DNA of 64,000 nt from an uncultured Bacteroidia bacterium. GTDB taxonomy: Bacteria > Bacteroidota > Bacteroidia > Bacteroidales > UBA932. How positions within the stretch are numbered: the first letter of the stretch is position 1; each line of letters begins with the position of its first letter. Below are positions 55,734 through 63,399 of the stretch, piece by piece. The notes beneath the pieces are model-generated. The model made no database searches. It worked only from the letters and a program-made list of their open reading frames with translations, and had not been told where the DNA came from. The stretch lies in NCBI GenBank assembly GCA_902768985.1, contig CACXNA010000002.1, positions 147,456 to 211,455 of the forward strand, given 5' to 3'. The position numbers and the translations under genes were made by a program.

Positions 55734-57104
55734 ATGATGAAAAGTACCAAATCCATCCTCGCCGCGCTGGCGCTGACCATCGCGGCCACGGCTGGCGCCC
55801 AGACCCTGAAGATGACCCCTCAGGTCGTGCGCATCACCGCCTACGAAGCCTCCACCTCCGTCAACCTGGTGGTCGTGAAACCCGAAGTGAAACTCGACGT
55901 CCTGGATCCGGCGGTCTTCACCGTCGAGACCAACGGCGTGGAGCGCAACGTCAAGATCGTTTACACCTGCGACGACCGCGGTGAGTGGGCCGACGGCGGC
56001 GACTACCTCGCCTTCGGCCTGGAGGTCAGCAACGCCCGCGGCGCCGCCCCGCTCGTCTCCCGCGGCATGGGCACCTGGAGCACCGCCTACCCCGTCAAGG
56101 TCGCCCTCAAGCAGGGCAAGAGCGTCAAGGCCGCCGGCAAGAAATACACGGCCGTAGAATGCGCCACCGCGCACGCCCTGCGCAACTTCCTCTCCGAGTC
56201 CGACTTCTTCCGCCGCGGCACCTTCACCGGTCCTTCGACCGGCCGCCCGGGCGACGAGACCCTCACCTACGGCGCCTATGAGCCGGAGGCCCTCCGCATC
56301 GACGGCAAGGCCAACCCGCTCATCATCTGGCTGCACGGCATGGGCGAAGGCGGCACCGACGTCTCCATCGAGCTGATGGGCAACGAGGTCGTGGCCCTCA
56401 TCCGCAACGACATCCAGTCCCACTTCACCACCGAGGGTGGCGAGAAGGGCGCCTATGTCCTCGCCGTCCAGTGCCCGACCATGTGGATGGACACCGCCAA
56501 GGGCTTCAGCGCCGGCGACCACCCGTCCCTGTACTCCGACGTCCTCAAGTCCTGCATCGACCACTACCTCGCACAGAACCCGGACGTGGACCGCAACCGC
56601 GTCTACATCGGCGGCTGCTCCAACGGCGGCTACATGACCGTGAACATGCTCCTGCGCAATCCGGGCTTCTTCGCAGCTGCCTACCCGACCTGTGAGGCCT
56701 TCGCCGACACCAACATCTCCGACCTGCAGATCAAGCAGATCTCCGGCGAGAACATCTGGTTCGTGCAGTCCTTCGACGACACGACGGTCCGCCCGACCGA
56801 CTACTGCATCCCGACCTACAAGCGCCTCATCGAGGCCGGCGCCAAGAACGTCTGGATGTCCATGTTTGAGAACGTGACCGGCACCGACACGCCCGGCCAG
56901 CGGCTCTTCGGCCACTTCTCCTGGGTCTACGTCTTCAACGACCAGGTCACCGGCGCCCAGGAGCAGTCCACGGCCGACCCGAAGCCGTCCAACAACGGCG
57001 GCGGCACCGTCGCTCCCCAGGGCTTCCACAACCTCTTCGATTGGATGAACGCCCAGGTCCTCACCGCCCCCGCGGTCCCGCAGCAGCAGGGTGGCCGGCG
57101 CTAA
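55734..57104 (+). CDS. Exported alpha/beta-hydrolase esterase (CE1/PHB-depolymerase-like)
   Basis: The 456-residue exported protein has a signal peptide (ATAGAQ) and an N-terminal Ig-like domain (about 22-125), then an alpha/beta-hydrolase domain with LIIWLHGMGEGG (oxyanion strand), the nucleophile YIGGCSNGGYMTV (Ser in GCSNGG) and late HFSWVYVFND that may hold the catalytic His. It resembles feruloyl-esterase/depolymerase-type enzymes that Bacteroidales use on plant polymers. Two ATGs in a row; the first gives a normal signal peptide. Its 3' end overlaps the convergent MATE gene by 44 bp. Confidence 0.82.
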   Translation: MMKSTKSILAALALTIAATAGAQTLKMTPQVVRITAYEASTSVNLVVVKPEVKLDVLDPAVFTVETNGVERNVKIVYTCDDRGEWADGGDYLAFGLEVSNARGAAPLVSRGMGTWSTAYPVKVALKQGKSVKAAGKKYTAVECATAHALRNFLSESDFFRRGTFTGPSTGRPGDETLTYGAYEPEALRIDGKANPLIIWLHGMGEGGTDVSIELMGNEVVALIRNDIQSHFTTEGGEKGAYVLAVQCPTMWMDTAKGFSAGDHPSLYSDVLKSCIDHYLAQNPDVDRNRVYIGGCSNGGYMTVNMLLRNPGFFAAAYPTCEAFADTNISDLQIKQISGENIWFVQSFDDTTVRPTDYCIPTYKRLIEAGAKNVWMSMFENVTGTDTPGQRLFGHFSWVYVFNDQVTGAQEQSTADPKPSNNGGGTVAPQGFHNLFDWMNAQVLTAPAVPQQQGGRR

Positions 57105-58836
57105 TCTTGTCGAAATTCAGATAGACGCAATTGACGCCGCTGGCATAGCGGTAATTGACGTCCCGACAGAAACCTTCCACGATCCGGAGACTCAATGCCT
57201 CCGGATCGTTTTTTCCATAGGCGTGCAAGGGATTGAAGGCTTTCCCCGTCGCCTTGACCAGGATGGTGAAACGGTCGTCGCCGTCCACGATTCCCACGTC
57301 GAAGCTGCCTCTGAGCCCGCAGGACTGCCCCATCTCCAGCTGATGCAGCATCATTTCCTCCACGCAGTGGGTGACGGCCGTGTTCTCCGCCTGCGAGAGC
57401 AGCATGGCCTCCAGCCGTTCACGCAGAAGCAGGAACTGCTGCGCGACGCTTTCGCGGGAATAGGCCACGCTCACGGCGAAAGCATGCCGCGTGTCGCCCA
57501 CGGGGATCAGCCAGACCGGGTGCAAGTTCCCTTCCTTTTTGGAGATCAGGGCCGCGGCCACCAGGCCGCCCAGCGCGGGGAGCAGCATGCCCAGCGGCAG
57601 AGCCACCCAAAGGTTCCAACGGGAGAAGGCCACCGCGAGCGGCAGGATACAAATAACGATGCCCGCCTGCAGCAGGGCGGCCGGACGCCCCCGCTTGACC
57701 AGCAGGAAGGCGTTGGCCTGCGTCATCAGCAGCGTCGCGGGCAGGAAGACGCCGGCGAAAATGCGAAGCGGCGTGGCAGACAGCTGCGCGAGGGCCGCAT
57801 CGGCCCCGAAAAGCGAAGCCACCCCTTCGGGGAATGCCAGAAGAAGAACGGTCGCGCAGAGCGCCAACCCCAGCGAGAGCCGCAGAATGAGGGAAATGAG
57901 CCGCCCCACGGCATCCCAGTCCTCCTCGCCGGACAGGATGCCGCCCAGCCCCGTGATGGTGCCACCCGTGGCGGTGAGCACCAGCATACAGATCATCAGC
58001 AGCTGCATGCAAATGCTCAGGGTGAACATGCCGTCGGCCCCCAGCGTGCGCAGGACCAGGGTATTGAGGCCCAGATTGAGGATAATCATCGAAACGCCCG
58101 TCATCGCGGCGGGGGTGCCCCGCGACAGGATTTCCCGGAAATACTTCCGGACGCCGGCCCATCCGGGCCAGCTCAGGCGATACGGGCGCGGCTCCCGCAA
58201 CAGGTACGGGACCATCACCAGGAAGCCGAGGACCGCCGCGGAGGAAGTGCCCGCCGCCGCGCCCCGGATGCCCATGCCCAGCACCCGCACAAAGAGAATG
58301 TCCAGGGCAAGGTTCAGGACCCCGAAGATGCCGACAAACCAGGCCACCAGCCGCGGCCGGCCGCTGATCTGGACGAACTGGCCGCCCGCACAGGCGAAAA
58401 GGGCGAAGAAACTTCCCACAAATGCAAAAGGAAGATACGCCTGCAGCATGGGCTGCAAACGCGCATCCTGCGTGATGAAGCAGGAAACCGGCCCCGCATA
58501 AACGGCCAGCAGGGCCGTGAAGACGCCGCTGACAAGCAGCGCCGAAGCCAGGCCCACCGTGAGTACCCGGTTCACCCGGCCATAATCCTGATTCCCGAAA
58601 GCCGGCGCAATCAGGAGCGTCGCCCCCATCAGGAGAATGGTGCCCGGAAGCATGAGGATATTCACCAGCGGCAAGGCCAGGACAATCACCGACACGGCGT
58701 CCGCCCCGATGAACTGCCCCGCCACCATACTGTCTATGGTACAGTTGAGCTGGATGATAATCCCGGCAAAAATCGCTGCCGCCAAGTAATGCCTCAGCGT
58801 ATGGCGAATGATATGGGAATTCCGGACCGGCTGCAT
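57061..58836 (-). CDS. MATE efflux transporter fused to an anti-sigma-type ATPase domain
   Basis: The 591-residue protein has 12 hydrophobic helices in about residues 1-440 with MATE character (NCTIDSMVAGQFIGADAVS, GTILLMGATLLIAPAFG, LTATGGTITGLGGILSG). After residue ~455 comes a soluble domain with RsbW/SpoIIAB-like order: HCVEEMMLHQLEMG (N-box-like), FDVGIVDGDDRFTILVKATGKAFNPL and LRIVEGFCRDVNYRYASGVNCVYLNF, whose GVNxxxLNF end is typical. The C-terminal domain is not part of normal MATE proteins (about 450 residues). It could couple transport to a signalling partner. Convergent with the esterase gene. Confidence 0.82.
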   Translation of the reverse strand: MQPVRNSHIIRHTLRHYLAAAIFAGIIIQLNCTIDSMVAGQFIGADAVSVIVLALPLVNILMLPGTILLMGATLLIAPAFGNQDYGRVNRVLTVGLASALLVSGVFTALLAVYAGPVSCFITQDARLQPMLQAYLPFAFVGSFFALFACAGGQFVQISGRPRLVAWFVGIFGVLNLALDILFVRVLGMGIRGAAAGTSSAAVLGFLVMVPYLLREPRPYRLSWPGWAGVRKYFREILSRGTPAAMTGVSMIILNLGLNTLVLRTLGADGMFTLSICMQLLMICMLVLTATGGTITGLGGILSGEEDWDAVGRLISLILRLSLGLALCATVLLLAFPEGVASLFGADAALAQLSATPLRIFAGVFLPATLLMTQANAFLLVKRGRPAALLQAGIVICILPLAVAFSRWNLWVALPLGMLLPALGGLVAAALISKKEGNLHPVWLIPVGDTRHAFAVSVAYSRESVAQQFLLLRERLEAMLLSQAENTAVTHCVEEMMLHQLEMGQSCGLRGSFDVGIVDGDDRFTILVKATGKAFNPLHAYGKNDPEALSLRIVEGFCRDVNYRYASGVNCVYLNFDKISAGHPAAAGPRGR

Positions 58837-58939
58837 CTGACGCGAACAGTTTTACCGCTACGAAGTTACAAAGAATTTGGAAAAGAGCGCACTAATATGT
58901 ATATTGCCCCGGAATTGTATGGCAGAGAGCCCCCATCAA

Positions 58940-59983
58940 ATGAACCGCCTGCCCCTCATTCTGTGCTGCTGTCTGGCACTGTTCGCTTCCTGCGTCAAGG
59001 CAGGAGACATTGTTTATGTGCCCAATCCGAACGAAGAAAAAGCCGACGGGGCTCCCATGGTGGTCGTTCTCTACGGCCCCAACGACCTGGGAGACCGTTC
59101 CTATTGCGACCTCATTTATCGGGGCGTGGAGACGGCGGCACAGCGCTATGGGTTACGTACGCTGCAGCTCTCCCCGGAGAGCGAGGAACAGGGCAGGGCC
59201 TACCTGGAAAAAATCTTCTCCCAGATGGAGGATGTCACGGACACCGTCCGGCGCCTGTTCATCACGCCCAGCTCGGTTTACAATGATTACATCCGCGCCA
59301 ACAACCGCCGGCTGGAAGTCAATCCCCGGGCGGACCTCCTGTATATGGAGACCACCACGCCGCTGGAAGGCAAGGGATCCACGCTGTATATCGACTATTA
59401 TGGGGCCATGTATATGGGCGGATGCCTGGCGCATTATACAGACAAAACTGCCGCCTCCCTCATTCTGGCCAATCCCTACACCCAGGCCGTCCGGGAGGCT
59501 GCCGAAGGCTTTGCAGCGGGGTTTAATGACACACCCCGGAGCCCCATGCCCCTGCATGCCCGCTATCTGAGCGACGAACCGGCCGGTGGATTCGCCGTGG
59601 CCGATTCCACGATTCTGCGCATCCTGAATGAAGACGAATACTTTTCCGACAGCATCTATGTCCCCATCTGCGGCGGCTCCATACACAGTCTCATCCGGGC
59701 CATGCGGGCCTTTATCTGGATTACATTCGGTTACGTCGGCGTGGACGGCGACCTGAATGCCGACAGATACTGTTACTTCTCCATTATCAAAAACATAGAC
59801 AGGGTAATGGAGGATTATGTGGGCCTGTGGCTGGACGGCGATTTGCCCAAGCACCAGACCCTGGGGCTGAAGGAAGTCTCCACGGGCGTAGTGATCAATG
59901 GAGCGAAAGTAAAAGTAAAACTGGATCTGGACAGCCTGCGCAGGGTGGCCATCCTCAAAGAGAAAGAGTATGAAAACAGATAG
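58940..59983 (+). CDS. BMP-like periplasmic-binding lipoprotein
   Basis: The 347-residue lipoprotein (MNRLPLILCCCLALFASC, Cys18) has a type-1 periplasmic-binding fold of the BMP/PnrA group: VVVLYGPNDLGDRSYCDLIYRGVETAAQRYG matches their DLGDxSFN start, and YIDYYGAMYMGG...AASLILANPYTQ resembles the second lobe. No ABC permease or ATPase lies nearby, so it is unlikely to feed a transporter here; a sensing or binding role is more likely. First gene of a four-gene operon; its last 14 bp overlap the next gene. In-frame ATGs at 58877 and 58919 are rejected because they would put a soluble stretch before the signal peptide. Confidence 0.75.
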   Translation: MNRLPLILCCCLALFASCVKAGDIVYVPNPNEEKADGAPMVVVLYGPNDLGDRSYCDLIYRGVETAAQRYGLRTLQLSPESEEQGRAYLEKIFSQMEDVTDTVRRLFITPSSVYNDYIRANNRRLEVNPRADLLYMETTTPLEGKGSTLYIDYYGAMYMGGCLAHYTDKTAASLILANPYTQAVREAAEGFAAGFNDTPRSPMPLHARYLSDEPAGGFAVADSTILRILNEDEYFSDSIYVPICGGSIHSLIRAMRAFIWITFGYVGVDGDLNADRYCYFSIIKNIDRVMEDYVGLWLDGDLPKHQTLGLKEVSTGVVINGAKVKVKLDLDSLRRVAILKEKEYENR

Positions 59984-62285
59984 GTTGCTGCACATACTCA
60001 TGACGCTCCTGCTGCTCACAGGCTGCTACAAGGAGGATGACATCATCATCTACAAGGATTCCCGCCGATGGGTGGAAAAGACGGTAGCCGTGGTGGCGCC
60101 GCTGAACGACCCCATCATGAAATCCAGGCTGGAACGCACGGCAAGCTGGATGAAAGACAACCTGCATCAAGGACAATTGCGGGACACGCTCTGTATCCAA
60201 CTCAAGCTCGAATGGTACGACGAATACGGCAACGACCTGGATCAGTTGGGGAAGGATCTCTCCGAGCGGGAGGACCTGATGGCAGTCATCGGCCCCTTCG
60301 ACAGCGACAACGTAAACCGCCTGGCGCCCTACTGCCACAAGACAGGCAAGCCGCTCATCCTGCCCACCGCCACCAGCGAGACGGTTATCCGCCGCTTTGC
60401 CATCACCAGCACCGGATCCGGCCAGAAACCGTTCATGTGGTCCCTCACGGAAACGGATGTCTCCCTGTCCGAGGTCCTAATGAGCAACTATGCCAATTTC
60501 CTGGCCCTGATGGACAAGGACGCATTAGTATATCTGGCCCGGTATTCCGCCCTCTTTACGCCTGCCGACACGTATGGCCAGACCTTCTTCGAGTGGACGC
60601 CGTTCCAGGCGAAGGAACTGGATATCTCCTTCGAGTATAACAAGCAATACGCAGCGCCTGAAGCACTCTACGAGTACCTGCAAGAGTATTACGAGTTGTT
60701 GAGCAGCGCCTATTTCCTTAGCTTTTTCATTCCTTCCTTCATCGTGGCTCAGGACGCGGAGATGCTTTATCAGATTGCCCGTATCCGTAGCGAATGGATG
60801 GGCATGGACCCCGACAATCCCGAAGACGACGCACGCGGCCACGATGGCCGACGGGCGCTTTGGGCTCCCGTCTATTTCGCCCTCTCCAACCTCACCGACG
60901 AGGCGATCGAAGCCCTCGGCCCGCGCGGCAAGGTCCTGACCAATGGCTATCAGGGTTACGCTCCGTACGCGGACCCGACCACGGGCTTCGAGCTCAGCTA
61001 CGAATCCCGCTATGACACCAAGCCCACCTTCGCCGAGTGCAAGTTCTACGATGCCCTGCTGCTGACGGCCTTCGCCGGCAGTTATCTGGAGCACCACCCG
61101 GAGATCACGGACCTCAACGACGCGATCATCGCCATCTGCACCACCGACCACCTCCTTTCCAACCATGCCTGGAACGCCACCGGCATAGAACTTTATTTAT
61201 CGGCCATGGAGAACGGGCAGTTGATCGGCTTCAAAGGCGCTTCCGGCCCCGTCCAGTTTGATAAGGAGTGTTATACGGCCGCGCTCAACACCACTTACGT
61301 AAACTGGATCATCTCTGAGGGCCGCATCCGGAATCAAGGATATTTCAGTGCTTCCGGCAGCGCCCAGACGGGAGAGACCTTGGCCTCCTGGAACTGGGCG
61401 GTACAGCACGCAGAAGAGCGCTTTGACCGCGAATACGGCGATGAAGGATCTGCGCCCGTTTATCCCGCGCTTTCGGATCAATACGCCGTTCTGGTGCAGG
61501 GCAGCAATGGTTGGCAGAACTATCGCCACGAGACCGATGTGCTGAACATCTACCAACTGCTCAAAGCTGGCGGCTACGACGACGATCACATCATCCTCAT
61601 CATCGCCGACGATATAGCCAATGCTCCGGAGAACCCGGACCGCGGGGCCGTGCGCACCGATTCGGACGGCGTGAATCTGCGCGCGGGCGCAATCGTCGAC
61701 TATAAGAACGCCGATCTCGCACCCGCCGACATTGTCAACATCTTAAAGGGCGTGTCCACGGCACGGACGCCGGTGGTGCTGCCCTCCGATGCCGGACAAA
61801 ACGTCCTGCTGTTCTGGAGCGGTCACGGTCACAGCCAGGCCGTGGGCGGCATCAATGAGATGGCGTGGCGCGACAATCCGCCCGCCGAGGGCATGACGGC
61901 GGACCTGCTGGCGAAGACCATCAGCCAGATGGCCGGGCAGCATCAGTTCCGTCAGATGCTCGTGTGTCTGGAGCCCTGCTACTCGGCCAATATCGGCATG
62001 GCGCTGGAAGGCATTCCAGGGGTATTGGCCATCTGCTCGGCCGGTCCTTACGAGCAATCTTTCGCGGATTCCTGGAGCAACGAACTGAATGTGTGGATGT
62101 GCGACCGCTTCAGCCGCAACCTGGCGGGACACACCTCGGCCAATCCCAACGGCACCTACCGGGACCTCTATCTCTATTGCGCTAGGCACACGCTCGGCTC
62201 GCATGTCGGCATCTTCAACCATACCCATTTCGGCAACCTGTATATCAACGGCCCGAAGGATTTTTTCATCAAGAAACAACCATAA
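59970..62285 (+). CDS. Lipoprotein fusing a type-1 binding protein to a C13 legumain-like peptidase
   Basis: A 771-residue lipoprotein (MKTDRLLHILMTLLLLTGC, Cys19). The acidic CYKEDD after the Cys resembles the Bacteroidetes surface-export signal, so it may face outwards. Residues ~35-400 look like a branched-chain-amino-acid-type binding protein (VAVVAPLNDPIMKSRLERT, LMAVIGPFDSDNVNRLAP, GKPLILPTATSETV). From Tyr505 it is a C13 peptidase domain: YAVLVQGSNGWQNYRHETDV, IILIIADDIANAPENP, catalytic His619 in SGHGHS, and catalytic Cys670 in VCLEPCYSANI (legumain has EACESGS there). C13 enzymes cut or transpeptidate at Asn/Asp; here the binding domain may control that activity. Confidence 0.88.
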   Translation: MKTDRLLHILMTLLLLTGCYKEDDIIIYKDSRRWVEKTVAVVAPLNDPIMKSRLERTASWMKDNLHQGQLRDTLCIQLKLEWYDEYGNDLDQLGKDLSEREDLMAVIGPFDSDNVNRLAPYCHKTGKPLILPTATSETVIRRFAITSTGSGQKPFMWSLTETDVSLSEVLMSNYANFLALMDKDALVYLARYSALFTPADTYGQTFFEWTPFQAKELDISFEYNKQYAAPEALYEYLQEYYELLSSAYFLSFFIPSFIVAQDAEMLYQIARIRSEWMGMDPDNPEDDARGHDGRRALWAPVYFALSNLTDEAIEALGPRGKVLTNGYQGYAPYADPTTGFELSYESRYDTKPTFAECKFYDALLLTAFAGSYLEHHPEITDLNDAIIAICTTDHLLSNHAWNATGIELYLSAMENGQLIGFKGASGPVQFDKECYTAALNTTYVNWIISEGRIRNQGYFSASGSAQTGETLASWNWAVQHAEERFDREYGDEGSAPVYPALSDQYAVLVQGSNGWQNYRHETDVLNIYQLLKAGGYDDDHIILIIADDIANAPENPDRGAVRTDSDGVNLRAGAIVDYKNADLAPADIVNILKGVSTARTPVVLPSDAGQNVLLFWSGHGHSQAVGGINEMAWRDNPPAEGMTADLLAKTISQMAGQHQFRQMLVCLEPCYSANIGMALEGIPGVLAICSAGPYEQSFADSWSNELNVWMCDRFSRNLAGHTSANPNGTYRDLYLYCARHTLGSHVGIFNHTHFGNLYINGPKDFFIKKQP

Positions 62286-62297
62286 ACCCCACCAGGC

Positions 62298-62813
62298 ATG
62301 CTCAAGAAACGATTTGGAGGACTCCTTGCAGCGTTGATGCTCTTTGGCTGCAGCGGCAACCCACTTCCGGTGAATCTGGAAGCGGGAGACGCGCTGCCGC
62401 AGTTTTCGGTGCGGATGAACAACGGGACGCGCGTGCGCACTGCCGACCTCCTGGGCCAGCCCAGCGTCATCGTCTTCTTCTCGGTGGATTGCATAGATTG
62501 CCGACACCTGCTGCCGCAGATTCAGAAGCTGTGGGATATGGATCTGGGTCTTCCCATCGTGCTAATTGCGCGTAAGAACACGGCCGCAGACATCGTGCCT
62601 TTCTGGGCGTTTTCCGAATTCACGATGACGTACTCCCCGCAGAGGAGCCGCCGCATCTATTCGCGCTTTGCTCCATCCCGCATCCCCCGGATCTACATCA
62701 GCGATGATCAGGGGATCATACGATACATTCATGCGGACGAACACCTGCCTTCGGCCCGGGAACTGGCCGATGAAATAGAAAGTCTAACCCAAAACCATAC
62801 AAGCCATGATTAG
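62298..62813 (+). CDS. Thioredoxin-like (TlpA/ResA-type) lipoprotein
   Basis: The 171-residue lipoprotein (MLKKRFGGLLAALMLFGC, Cys18) has a thioredoxin-like fold opening GDALPQFSVRMNNGTRVRTADLLGQPSVIVFF and a redox pair C65-I-D-C68 in SVDCIDCRHLLPQ. The cis-Pro loop is SRIPRIYISDDQG. It probably reduces or isomerises disulfides outside the cytoplasm. It is 12 bp after the C13 gene and overlaps the last gene by 8 bp; that gene encodes a Cys-containing protein, a possible client. Confidence 0.85.
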   Translation: MLKKRFGGLLAALMLFGCSGNPLPVNLEAGDALPQFSVRMNNGTRVRTADLLGQPSVIVFFSVDCIDCRHLLPQIQKLWDMDLGLPIVLIARKNTAADIVPFWAFSEFTMTYSPQRSRRIYSRFAPSRIPRIYISDDQGIIRYIHADEHLPSARELADEIESLTQNHTSHD

Positions 62814-63399
62814 AAGATTTTTATTGATTTCCAGCGCATTATTGCTCGCTCTCGCCTTCACGGCCTGTCAGAAGAACGGTGGTAAGCCCAGCGTGAAAAT
62901 GGTTTACGCCGTCAATGTCTCCGAGGATGTTCTCAAAGTGGCCAATGTCGAGGTCCATTACGTGGACAAGACCGGGGATAAGAAGAAGGAAATCGTTACC
63001 CAGACTCCGTGGAAACTCACCATTGTGGCCGACGCTTTACCCCTCACGGAGGGGGTCTGGGCTAAAATAACGCCCAAGGTCGGAGTCCCCGAAAGCACTT
63101 ATTCGCTCGATCTTAAAACGATTGCGGCTTATGGAGGCCATCTGGGGAATGGGAAAAAGATTGCCGATATATACAGCAATACGCCCAAGGCCCCCACAGT
63201 AGCCAAGACCGCAGCCGAGATTCAAGCCTGGTGCGCCACTTCCCCCACCGTGTCCTTTACCGTAAGCCAGGAAGGCTTTGCCAAGCAGACACATGTGGAC
63301 TTTGGCGGCAATGGCTTCTGGGATGATTTCTGGGAAGCAATCTGCTTGGATTATTGCGAAACTTACGACGAAGATCCGGATGAGTGGTGTTACGAATAA
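62806..63399 (+). CDS. Small lipoprotein with acidic Cys/Trp tail
   Basis: The 197-residue lipoprotein (MIRRFLLISSALLLALAFTAC, Cys21) has a central beta-rich part (VEVHYVDKTGDKKKEIVTQ, AKITPKVGVPESTYSLDLK) and a strongly acidic C-terminus after a Gly-Asn turn: FWDDFWEAICLDYCETYDED, with Cys180, Cys184 and Cys195 and five aromatic residues near them. I recognise no family. Last gene of the operon, starting within the thioredoxin-like gene. The tail could be a substrate or target of the C13 or CIDC proteins encoded upstream, which is only an inference. It ends with a terminator at 63423-63456. Confidence 0.72.
   Translation: MIRRFLLISSALLLALAFTACQKNGGKPSVKMVYAVNVSEDVLKVANVEVHYVDKTGDKKKEIVTQTPWKLTIVADALPLTEGVWAKITPKVGVPESTYSLDLKTIAAYGGHLGNGKKIADIYSNTPKAPTVAKTAAEIQAWCATSPTVSFTVSQEGFAKQTHVDFGGNGFWDDFWEAICLDYCETYDEDPDEWCYE

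Follow-up and report, generated by a model that had tools for sequence, protein, structure and literature searches.

Among described systems, those closest to the locus considered here are built around the C13 cysteine peptidases legumain and GPI8/PIGK, the latter acting in glycosylphosphatidylinositol (GPI) anchoring, with further parallels in sortase-mediated LPXTG sorting and in PorU, the sortase of type IX secretion. The locus is a run of four lipoprotein genes (genes 1 to 4) in a 64,000-nucleotide stretch, hereafter the window, of contig CACXNA010000002.1 from an uncultured Bacteroidia bacterium (assembly GCA_902768985.1), and its second gene encodes a C13 peptidase domain fused to a LivJ-type binding domain. 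We propose, at a probability of roughly 0.42, that gene 2 is an asparaginyl peptidase of the cell envelope and that, together with the BMP-like product of gene 1, it processes partner lipoproteins at their C-termini or transfers these ends.

Gene 2 resembles legumain in its C13 domain (PDB entry 4noj, E 6.1e-50), where the catalytic and named S1 residues are identical. Unlike legumain, it carries an N-terminal LivJ-type domain, is a lipoprotein and sits in a bacterial operon, and it leaves no room for a C-terminal prodomain, the chain ending 13 residues past the Pfam match. The likeness to GPI8/PIGK lies in the C13 domain (GPI transamidase 9ub7, E 7.6e-42) and in the proposal that the enzyme acts close to the C-terminal end of anchored proteins; gene 2 is, however, closer to legumain by profile score, and the candidate substrate here is already lipid-anchored at its N-terminus, with transfer only putative. 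Sortase/LPXTG sorting likewise pairs a dedicated cysteine enzyme with a short motif and tail on a candidate substrate encoded by a neighboring gene, whereas here the motif ends in Asn, the proteins are Gram-negative lipoproteins and any acceptor is hypothetical; the sortase fold is moreover unrelated to that of C13 enzymes. PorU is like gene 2 in being a clan CD cysteine enzyme, and it acts at the Bacteroidota surface, but it belongs to family C25, not C13, and works on the C-terminal domains of secreted proteins. Finally, the family profile of gene 1 matches BMP/PnrA lipoproteins (Lbp, TpN38 and TmpC), although gene 1 alone has no Pfam Bmp match. The open papers that were searched describe no bacterial binding-protein/C13 fusion, no C13 sorting system and no role for bacterial C13 enzymes. 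What appears to be new here is a candidate substrate motif in the family of gene 4.

The C13 fusion and its BMP-type partner

The features of the operon are given below. The start of gene 1 is that chosen in an earlier note on this DNA; the list of open reading frames also holds a longer frame, 58877-59983, that begins at TTG.

58940..59983, + strand: gene 1, BMP/PnrA-like binding lipoprotein of 347 amino acids, near-obligate partner 5' of the C13 fusion
59970..62285, + strand: gene 2, lipoprotein of 771 amino acids with an N-terminal LivJ-type binding domain and a C-terminal C13 (legumain-type) peptidase domain
60024..60041, + strand: lipobox Cys19 of gene 2 followed by Y-K-E-D-D, fitting the export signal C-X-K-(D/E)2
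60075..61439, + strand: binding-protein region of gene 2 (about residues 36-490, borders estimated), from profile matches
61479..62243, + strand: C13 domain of gene 2, residues 504-758, from Pfam
61518..61529, + strand: N517-Y-R519-H520 of gene 2, with R519 and H520 aligning with legumain Arg44 and His45 of the S1 pocket
61824..61826, + strand: catalytic His619 of gene 2, from alignment
61971..61979, + strand: E668-P-C670 of gene 2, including catalytic Cys670, from alignment
62298..62813, + strand: gene 3, thioredoxin-like lipoprotein of AhpC/TSA fold, 171 amino acids, with C65-I-D-C68
62806..63399, + strand: gene 4, "TAIL" lipoprotein of 197 amino acids, candidate substrate
63301..63312, + strand: F166-G-G-N169 of gene 4, the conserved motif, with Asn169 as the proposed P1 residue
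63313..63396, + strand: Cys/acidic tail of gene 4, 28 residues following FGGN

The earlier note had described four close-packed lipoprotein genes, and indeed genes 1 and 2 overlap by 14 base pairs, genes 2 and 3 are separated by 12 and genes 3 and 4 overlap by 8, with a signal and a lipobox Cys at the N-terminus of all four proteins. Its individual assignments likewise held, namely a BMP-like partner, a binding-protein/C13 fusion with His619 and Cys670 in legumain/GPI8 contexts, a CIDC thioredoxin-like protein (AhpC/TSA match of gene 3, E 3.3e-7) and a Cys/acidic-tailed protein, and the note knew of no described system with this set. Its picture of a surface system stood in part. The surface export signal of Bacteroidetes lipoproteins is given as C-X-K-(D/E)2 (PMC5080379). 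Gene 2, with C-Y-K-E-D-D, fits this signal, whereas genes 1, 3 and 4 (C-VKAGD, C-SGNPL and C-QKNGG) carry no acidic export signal, and a surface location is likely for gene 2 alone within the operon. Among the compared loci, for which gene calls were made in this analysis, at least two acidic residues occur at positions +2 to +7 in 71 of the 77 lipobox-bearing C13 proteins, from 82 scanned, and in 25 of 33 proteins of the gene 4 family, TAIL. Most C13 and TAIL proteins thus have acidic residues after the lipid-bearing Cys, like the surface lipoproteins of this phylum, so the two could encounter each other at the cell surface.

The active site of gene 2 is intact. Pfam Peptidase_C13 matches its residues 504-758 with an E value of 5.5e-41 (a score of 141.2 bits, the cut-off being 22.8), and plant proteases and ligases in the PDB matched the C13 profile more weakly than did legumain and the GPI transamidase. 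Both His619 and Cys670 are invariant in the 24 members of our first homologue set, and in a wider set of 105 homologues His619, Cys670 and Glu668 are each retained in 104. The S1 pocket of legumain comprises Arg44, His45, Ser216 and Asp231 (PMC4357240). These residues align with R519, H520, S697 and D712 of gene 2, which are kept in 105, 105, 104 and 87 of the 105 homologues, respectively, the last position being Asn in 16, Arg in one and a gap in one. The position of N517 is occupied by Asn in 101 of the 105 and by Asp in four; we take N517 to be the counterpart of legumain Asn42, and E668 that of Glu187. Asn specificity would be the natural expectation for all of these homologues other than that of locus L152.

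Among the 105 homologues, losses of His, Cys, Glu and Ser all trace to one gene, that of L152 (8001-10350). Its product, which has neither the catalytic His and Cys nor the pocket Glu, Ser and Asp, looks catalytically dead and is probably a pseudo-enzyme, and it still has a BMP partner and a GGN-type TAIL gene four genes away. A separate departure is seen in a 13-row clade of the C13 tree (L003, L067-L074 and, from L105 and L109, the first C13 gene of each), where the equivalent of Asp231 is Asn in all 13, which may reflect a shift in specificity; no TAIL gene lies within three genes of the members of this clade.

The N-terminal part of gene 2 matches LivJ-type proteins in the PDB by profile (4gnr, E 1.1e-5; 3td9, E 7.3e-4), with Pfam ANF_receptor and Peripla_BP_6 matching below threshold only, and a domain of this type is fused to the peptidase in 21 aligned relatives. 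The relationship of gene 1 to BMP proteins emerges at the level of its family, in which 4 of 16 members have a Bmp match (best E 6.8e-4) and whose profile matches Lbp (7x0r, E 8.6e-5), 4iil (E 0.0094) and 2fqw (E 0.35). No ATP-binding cassette transporter was present among the genes called beside gene 1 in the window.

A scan of genome contigs confirmed 321 relatives, from which the best 80 loci were kept. These contain 82 called C13 genes, 80 of which have an upstream neighbor on the locus, and in 79 of these 80 the gene directly upstream on the same strand is of BMP type (77 BMP and 2 of a second BMP family). The only testable C13 gene without such a partner is that of L089, those of L092 and L107 being cut. 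By the start choice used in this analysis, the two genes overlap in 73 of the 79 pairs, 41 of them by 11 bases. The first neighborhood set gives a similar picture, with a BMP partner for 21 of 24 C13 genes; of the remainder, L064 and L065 lie at contig ends and L063 has none. The fact that the pair is kept across tens of genomes excludes chance, and the conserved core is the BMP-C13 pair, not the four-gene set.

Indeed, the other partners are exchangeable. Counted as families present within four genes of C13 in the 80 loci, TAIL occurs at 25, the F6 family at 21, the F26 family at 15, a muramidase lipoprotein family (MUR; PF11860, E 3.5e-63 in the one member scanned) at 7, including a short, doubtful match in L108, the gene 3 family (TRX) at 4, one of which is from the same species as the window, and a lipase-like lipoprotein family (LIP; PF03583, E 1.3e-8 in the one member scanned) at 2. 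Since partners differ among loci, a fixed four-gene system is ruled out. The four-gene neighborhood that the earlier note proposed to search for does recur, reordered, in three Prevotella/Xylanibacter loci (BMP-C13-TAIL-TRX at L076, TAIL-TRX-BMP-C13 at L078 and L082) and in the same-species locus L075.

A GGN motif ahead of the tail in the gene 4 family

Gene 4 matches no Pfam family at E 0.1, and a profile search found no solved relative of TAIL, the best match (E 0.1) covering the first 36 profile positions, which are the signal region. TAIL proteins share a layout in which an N-terminal lipoprotein domain is followed by [FW]GGN and then by a tail of at least 20 residues. Over the last 60 residues of 32 TAIL proteins, the Asn and the two Gly of GGN form the top three columns (0.97, 0.97 and 0.94), and in a cluster of 39 TAIL proteins the Asn is the only column in this region conserved in at least 95%. 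Motif-bearing TAIL proteins with E below 1e-30 number 32, of which 18 are of the Cys type (tails of 23-32 residues with at least two Cys), 11 are of a hydrophilic type and 3 end in [IL]FGW. The Cys-type tail is less conserved than the domain that precedes it (0.28 versus 0.52 over 150 pairs). At L090:5765-9192, four TAIL genes stand in a short stretch and have similar domains with very different Cys-rich tails.

Among the members examined, the GGN form is confined to those linked to C13. Of the distinct homologues linked to C13 (E up to 1e-20), 33 of 35 carry the motif, and GGN with a tail at the end is found in none of 25 distinct unlinked ones (E up to 1e-7), L192 having GGN inside its domain. 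Unlinked copies that stop one residue past the Trp of WGGN occur as L156 in the genome of the window itself, L221 in its same-species sister G224, L216 in G146 and L217 in G253. The TAIL domain without GGN is seen in genomes that have no C13 gene and also as unlinked copies in genomes that have one. A further unlinked homologue, on contig C2 of G588 (L164), runs on as WGED without GGN.

The same association is evident when neighboring genes are compared. Within their last 80 amino acids, 28 of the 29 TAIL genes lying within three genes of C13 encode [FW]GGN, as do 0 of 271 other genes at that distance (C13 and BMP genes excluded) and 1 of 239 genes farther away. The idea that [FW]GGN is common to other neighbor families was rejected on this count; plain GGN occurs in 7 of 271 near genes and 5 of 239 farther ones. 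Of the 99 genomes from the G584 genus, 5 encode a full-length TAIL protein, the same five that carry full-length C13 fusions, and in the corresponding family both are again found in the same 5 of 173 genomes, with G784 having a broken TAIL gene and no C13. The genus counts cover full-length genes and set aside short C13-profile matches in G703 (63 positions) and G691 (E 1.5e-5) as well as weaker TAIL matches in 18 genomes.

The F26 partner family shows a parallel feature. All 15 of its 15 proteins have an Asn 27-28 residues before the C-terminus, a spacing close to that of the motif Asn in TAIL, and one Leu is the sole other column conserved in at least 95% over the last 60 residues, while at the thresholds used F26 clusters apart from TAIL by BLAST. 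At L072, where the pocket has Asn for Asp231, both F26 homologues beside C13 are without the Asn, two rows being too few to weigh. An isolated Asn of this kind is absent from the nine other clusters with at least five members; conserved Asn residues do occur in the C13 cluster (two) and in two small unnamed clusters (one each), there among 8 to 39 equally conserved columns. As motif carriers, the muramidase, lipase-like and F6 partners were rejected, since they show no isolated invariant Asn near the end, the exception being an Asn at -14 in 6 of 7 members of one F6 group.

Possible roles of the peptidase and its motif-bearing partners

If C-termini of partner lipoproteins are processed or transferred as we propose, gene 2 would be an outer-membrane, probably surface-exposed, Asn-specific C13 cysteine peptidase that works with gene 1 on lipoproteins encoded alongside. 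Here, that partner would be gene 4, located on the same face of the outer membrane as the enzyme: the bond after Asn169 of FGGN would be cut or exchanged, which would separate the lipid-anchored domain from the 28-residue tail. An acyl-enzyme would form at the Asn of GGN, followed either by release of the tail or by transfer of the anchored domain onto an acceptor. Disulphides of the Cys-rich tail would be managed by gene 3, a role that fits the presence of Cys-type tails beside TRX in all four TRX loci, and the binding domains may gate the enzyme. Since the locus holds genes for the enzyme, its near-obligate binding partner and a motif-bearing candidate substrate side by side, two purified proteins would be enough to test the question. 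Use of the site would mean Asn-based trimming or attachment of envelope proteins in a dominant gut phylum, and new asparaginyl proteases or ligases could then be drawn from such loci.

Several observations weigh against this proposal. The Fisher value of 7e-15 for the association overstates independence because TAIL sequences share descent and because the five genomes of the G584 genus are close relatives that probably represent one joint gain. Of the 25 unlinked homologues, just 9 extend beyond model position 150 in the alignment, the others matching the front part and simply being without the end. TAIL lies within four genes of C13 in just 25 of 80 loci, and two linked members are without GGN, namely L099 (WGDN, identical in L112) and L098:11083, which is on the opposite strand. 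In the genus of the window, GGN-form full-length TAIL was found only in G224 among the 29 other genomes searched, these being 29 of the 36 with C13 matches once those with short fragments (G149, G157, G212, G219, G230, G293 and G300) were left out. The C13 protein of L152 has R, D, C and R at catalytic His/Cys and pocket places, yet a GGN-form TAIL gene stands nearby, and gene 4 itself has C-QKNGGK where an acidic export signal would be expected. Residues past the Asn of GGN show no overall conservation, and tail and domain are about equally conserved in the hydrophilic group (0.60 versus 0.58). A hypervariable tail that serves as a discarded signal would fit the Cys type only and is contradicted by the hydrophilic type; the tails' own patterns favor a functional tail, either a released peptide or a recognition element.

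Two alternatives take the motif itself as their starting point. GGN could be a structural linker of a two-part protein whose Asn is unrelated to the action of the C13 enzyme, as the recurring patterns in both tail types, which suggest a folded element, and the retention of GGN beside the dead C13 of L152 would allow. We consider this doubtful, given that the GGN form is linked to C13, that F26 has a parallel Asn and that linkers seldom keep three invariant residues. Some cystatins present an Asn to legumain, and gene 4 might similarly be an inhibitor that offers its Asn to the peptidase. Conserved Asn and C13 linkage would suit such a role, but the motif stands at the end of the domain, ahead of a tail with its own pattern, and unlinked members end just short of it, which makes an inhibitor highly improbable.

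Other accounts begin from the enzyme and its binding domains. The earlier note suggested a sensor in which a ligand in the binding domain turns the peptidase on. The recurrent fusion of a LivJ-type domain to the peptidase and the near-obligate second binding protein speak for such gating, which we judge possible though somewhat unlikely, and which is compatible with C-terminal processing rather than exclusive of it. A nutrient-scavenging envelope protease is unlikely. In that case, C13 would digest environmental proteins, the binding domains would gather amino acids or peptides, and the remaining lipoproteins would be bystanders; amino acids are the ligands of LivJ-type proteins and nucleosides those of BMP-type proteins, many source records come from ruminants and the partners differ between loci. 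Scavenging leaves the confinement of GGN to linked homologues unexplained, however, and the annotated recurrent neighbor families are not transporters or aminopeptidases, a weak objection in that most single neighbors fall outside the annotation. Less probable still is a bacterial sorting system in which a legumain/GPI8-type transpeptidase cuts [FW]GGN and F26 lipoproteins after Asn and joins them to an envelope acceptor that the binding domains present or sense. Confinement of a motif to enzyme-linked proteins, as such an enzyme-substrate system should display, is seen in TAIL, L152 apart, whereas a motif-bearing substrate is not found at every enzyme locus (TAIL at 25 and F26 at 15 of 80, within four genes). 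If true, sorting of this kind would parallel both the sortases, in a Gram-negative setting, and GPI anchoring, in bacteria.

Distribution and genomic setting

C13 matches, fragments included, were found in 37 of 300 genomes of the genus. A scan of the order gave any match in 17 of 393 genomes, seven of them with long matches (G000, G399, G406, G553, G584, G588, which has a stop, and G624), and a sample of the phylum gave a match in 1 of 267, the window's own genome. By title, the best 80 records are mostly Prevotella, Prevotellaceae, Bacteroidaceae, Bacteroidales or Bacteroidia, with one Oscillospiraceae. In a C13 tree of 105 rows built by a quick method, the window sequence falls in a 27-row clade (SH-aLRT 99) of loci of the Prevotella/Xylanibacter kind, whose members are 64-70% identical to gene 2 in the best segment. 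The nearest complete relatives in its own genus besides G224 are 45-48% identical. On this comparison, the module appears to move between lineages. A record named RUG13447 is 99% identical across gene 2.

Some features recur near the pair elsewhere. A lipoprotein N-acetylmuramidase stands beside it in one tree clade (L055:6954-7700, with relatives in L056, L058-L061 and L063). Proteins of about 2000 residues or more adjoin the pair or TAIL at L076, L079, L080, L083, L087, L094, L095 and L114; their C-terminal ends are similar where uncut, and the two that were scanned contain BspA-type leucine-rich repeats. On contig C37 of G588 (L161), the C13 fusion is interrupted by an in-frame stop.

The genome of the window comprises 2.35 Mb in 28 contigs. 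A promoter and terminator scan gave results at chance level, and a defense system was rejected, with no PADLOC match at E 0.01 among the seven proteins scanned. The divergent neighbor of the operon, 57061-58836, encodes a MATE transporter with a C-terminal, sub-threshold HATPase_c_2 (kinase-like) domain, and in the first neighborhood set this family is present only in the window and G224. A second binding-domain/C13 fusion of the same build is encoded in the genome of the window (L003:7733-9904, G000 contig C7). It is accompanied by a BMP partner of its own, Peripla_BP_4 lipoproteins and a lipase-like lipoprotein; nearby genes encode an AraC-type regulator and a protein homologous to a SpoIIE-phosphatase/Cache protein.

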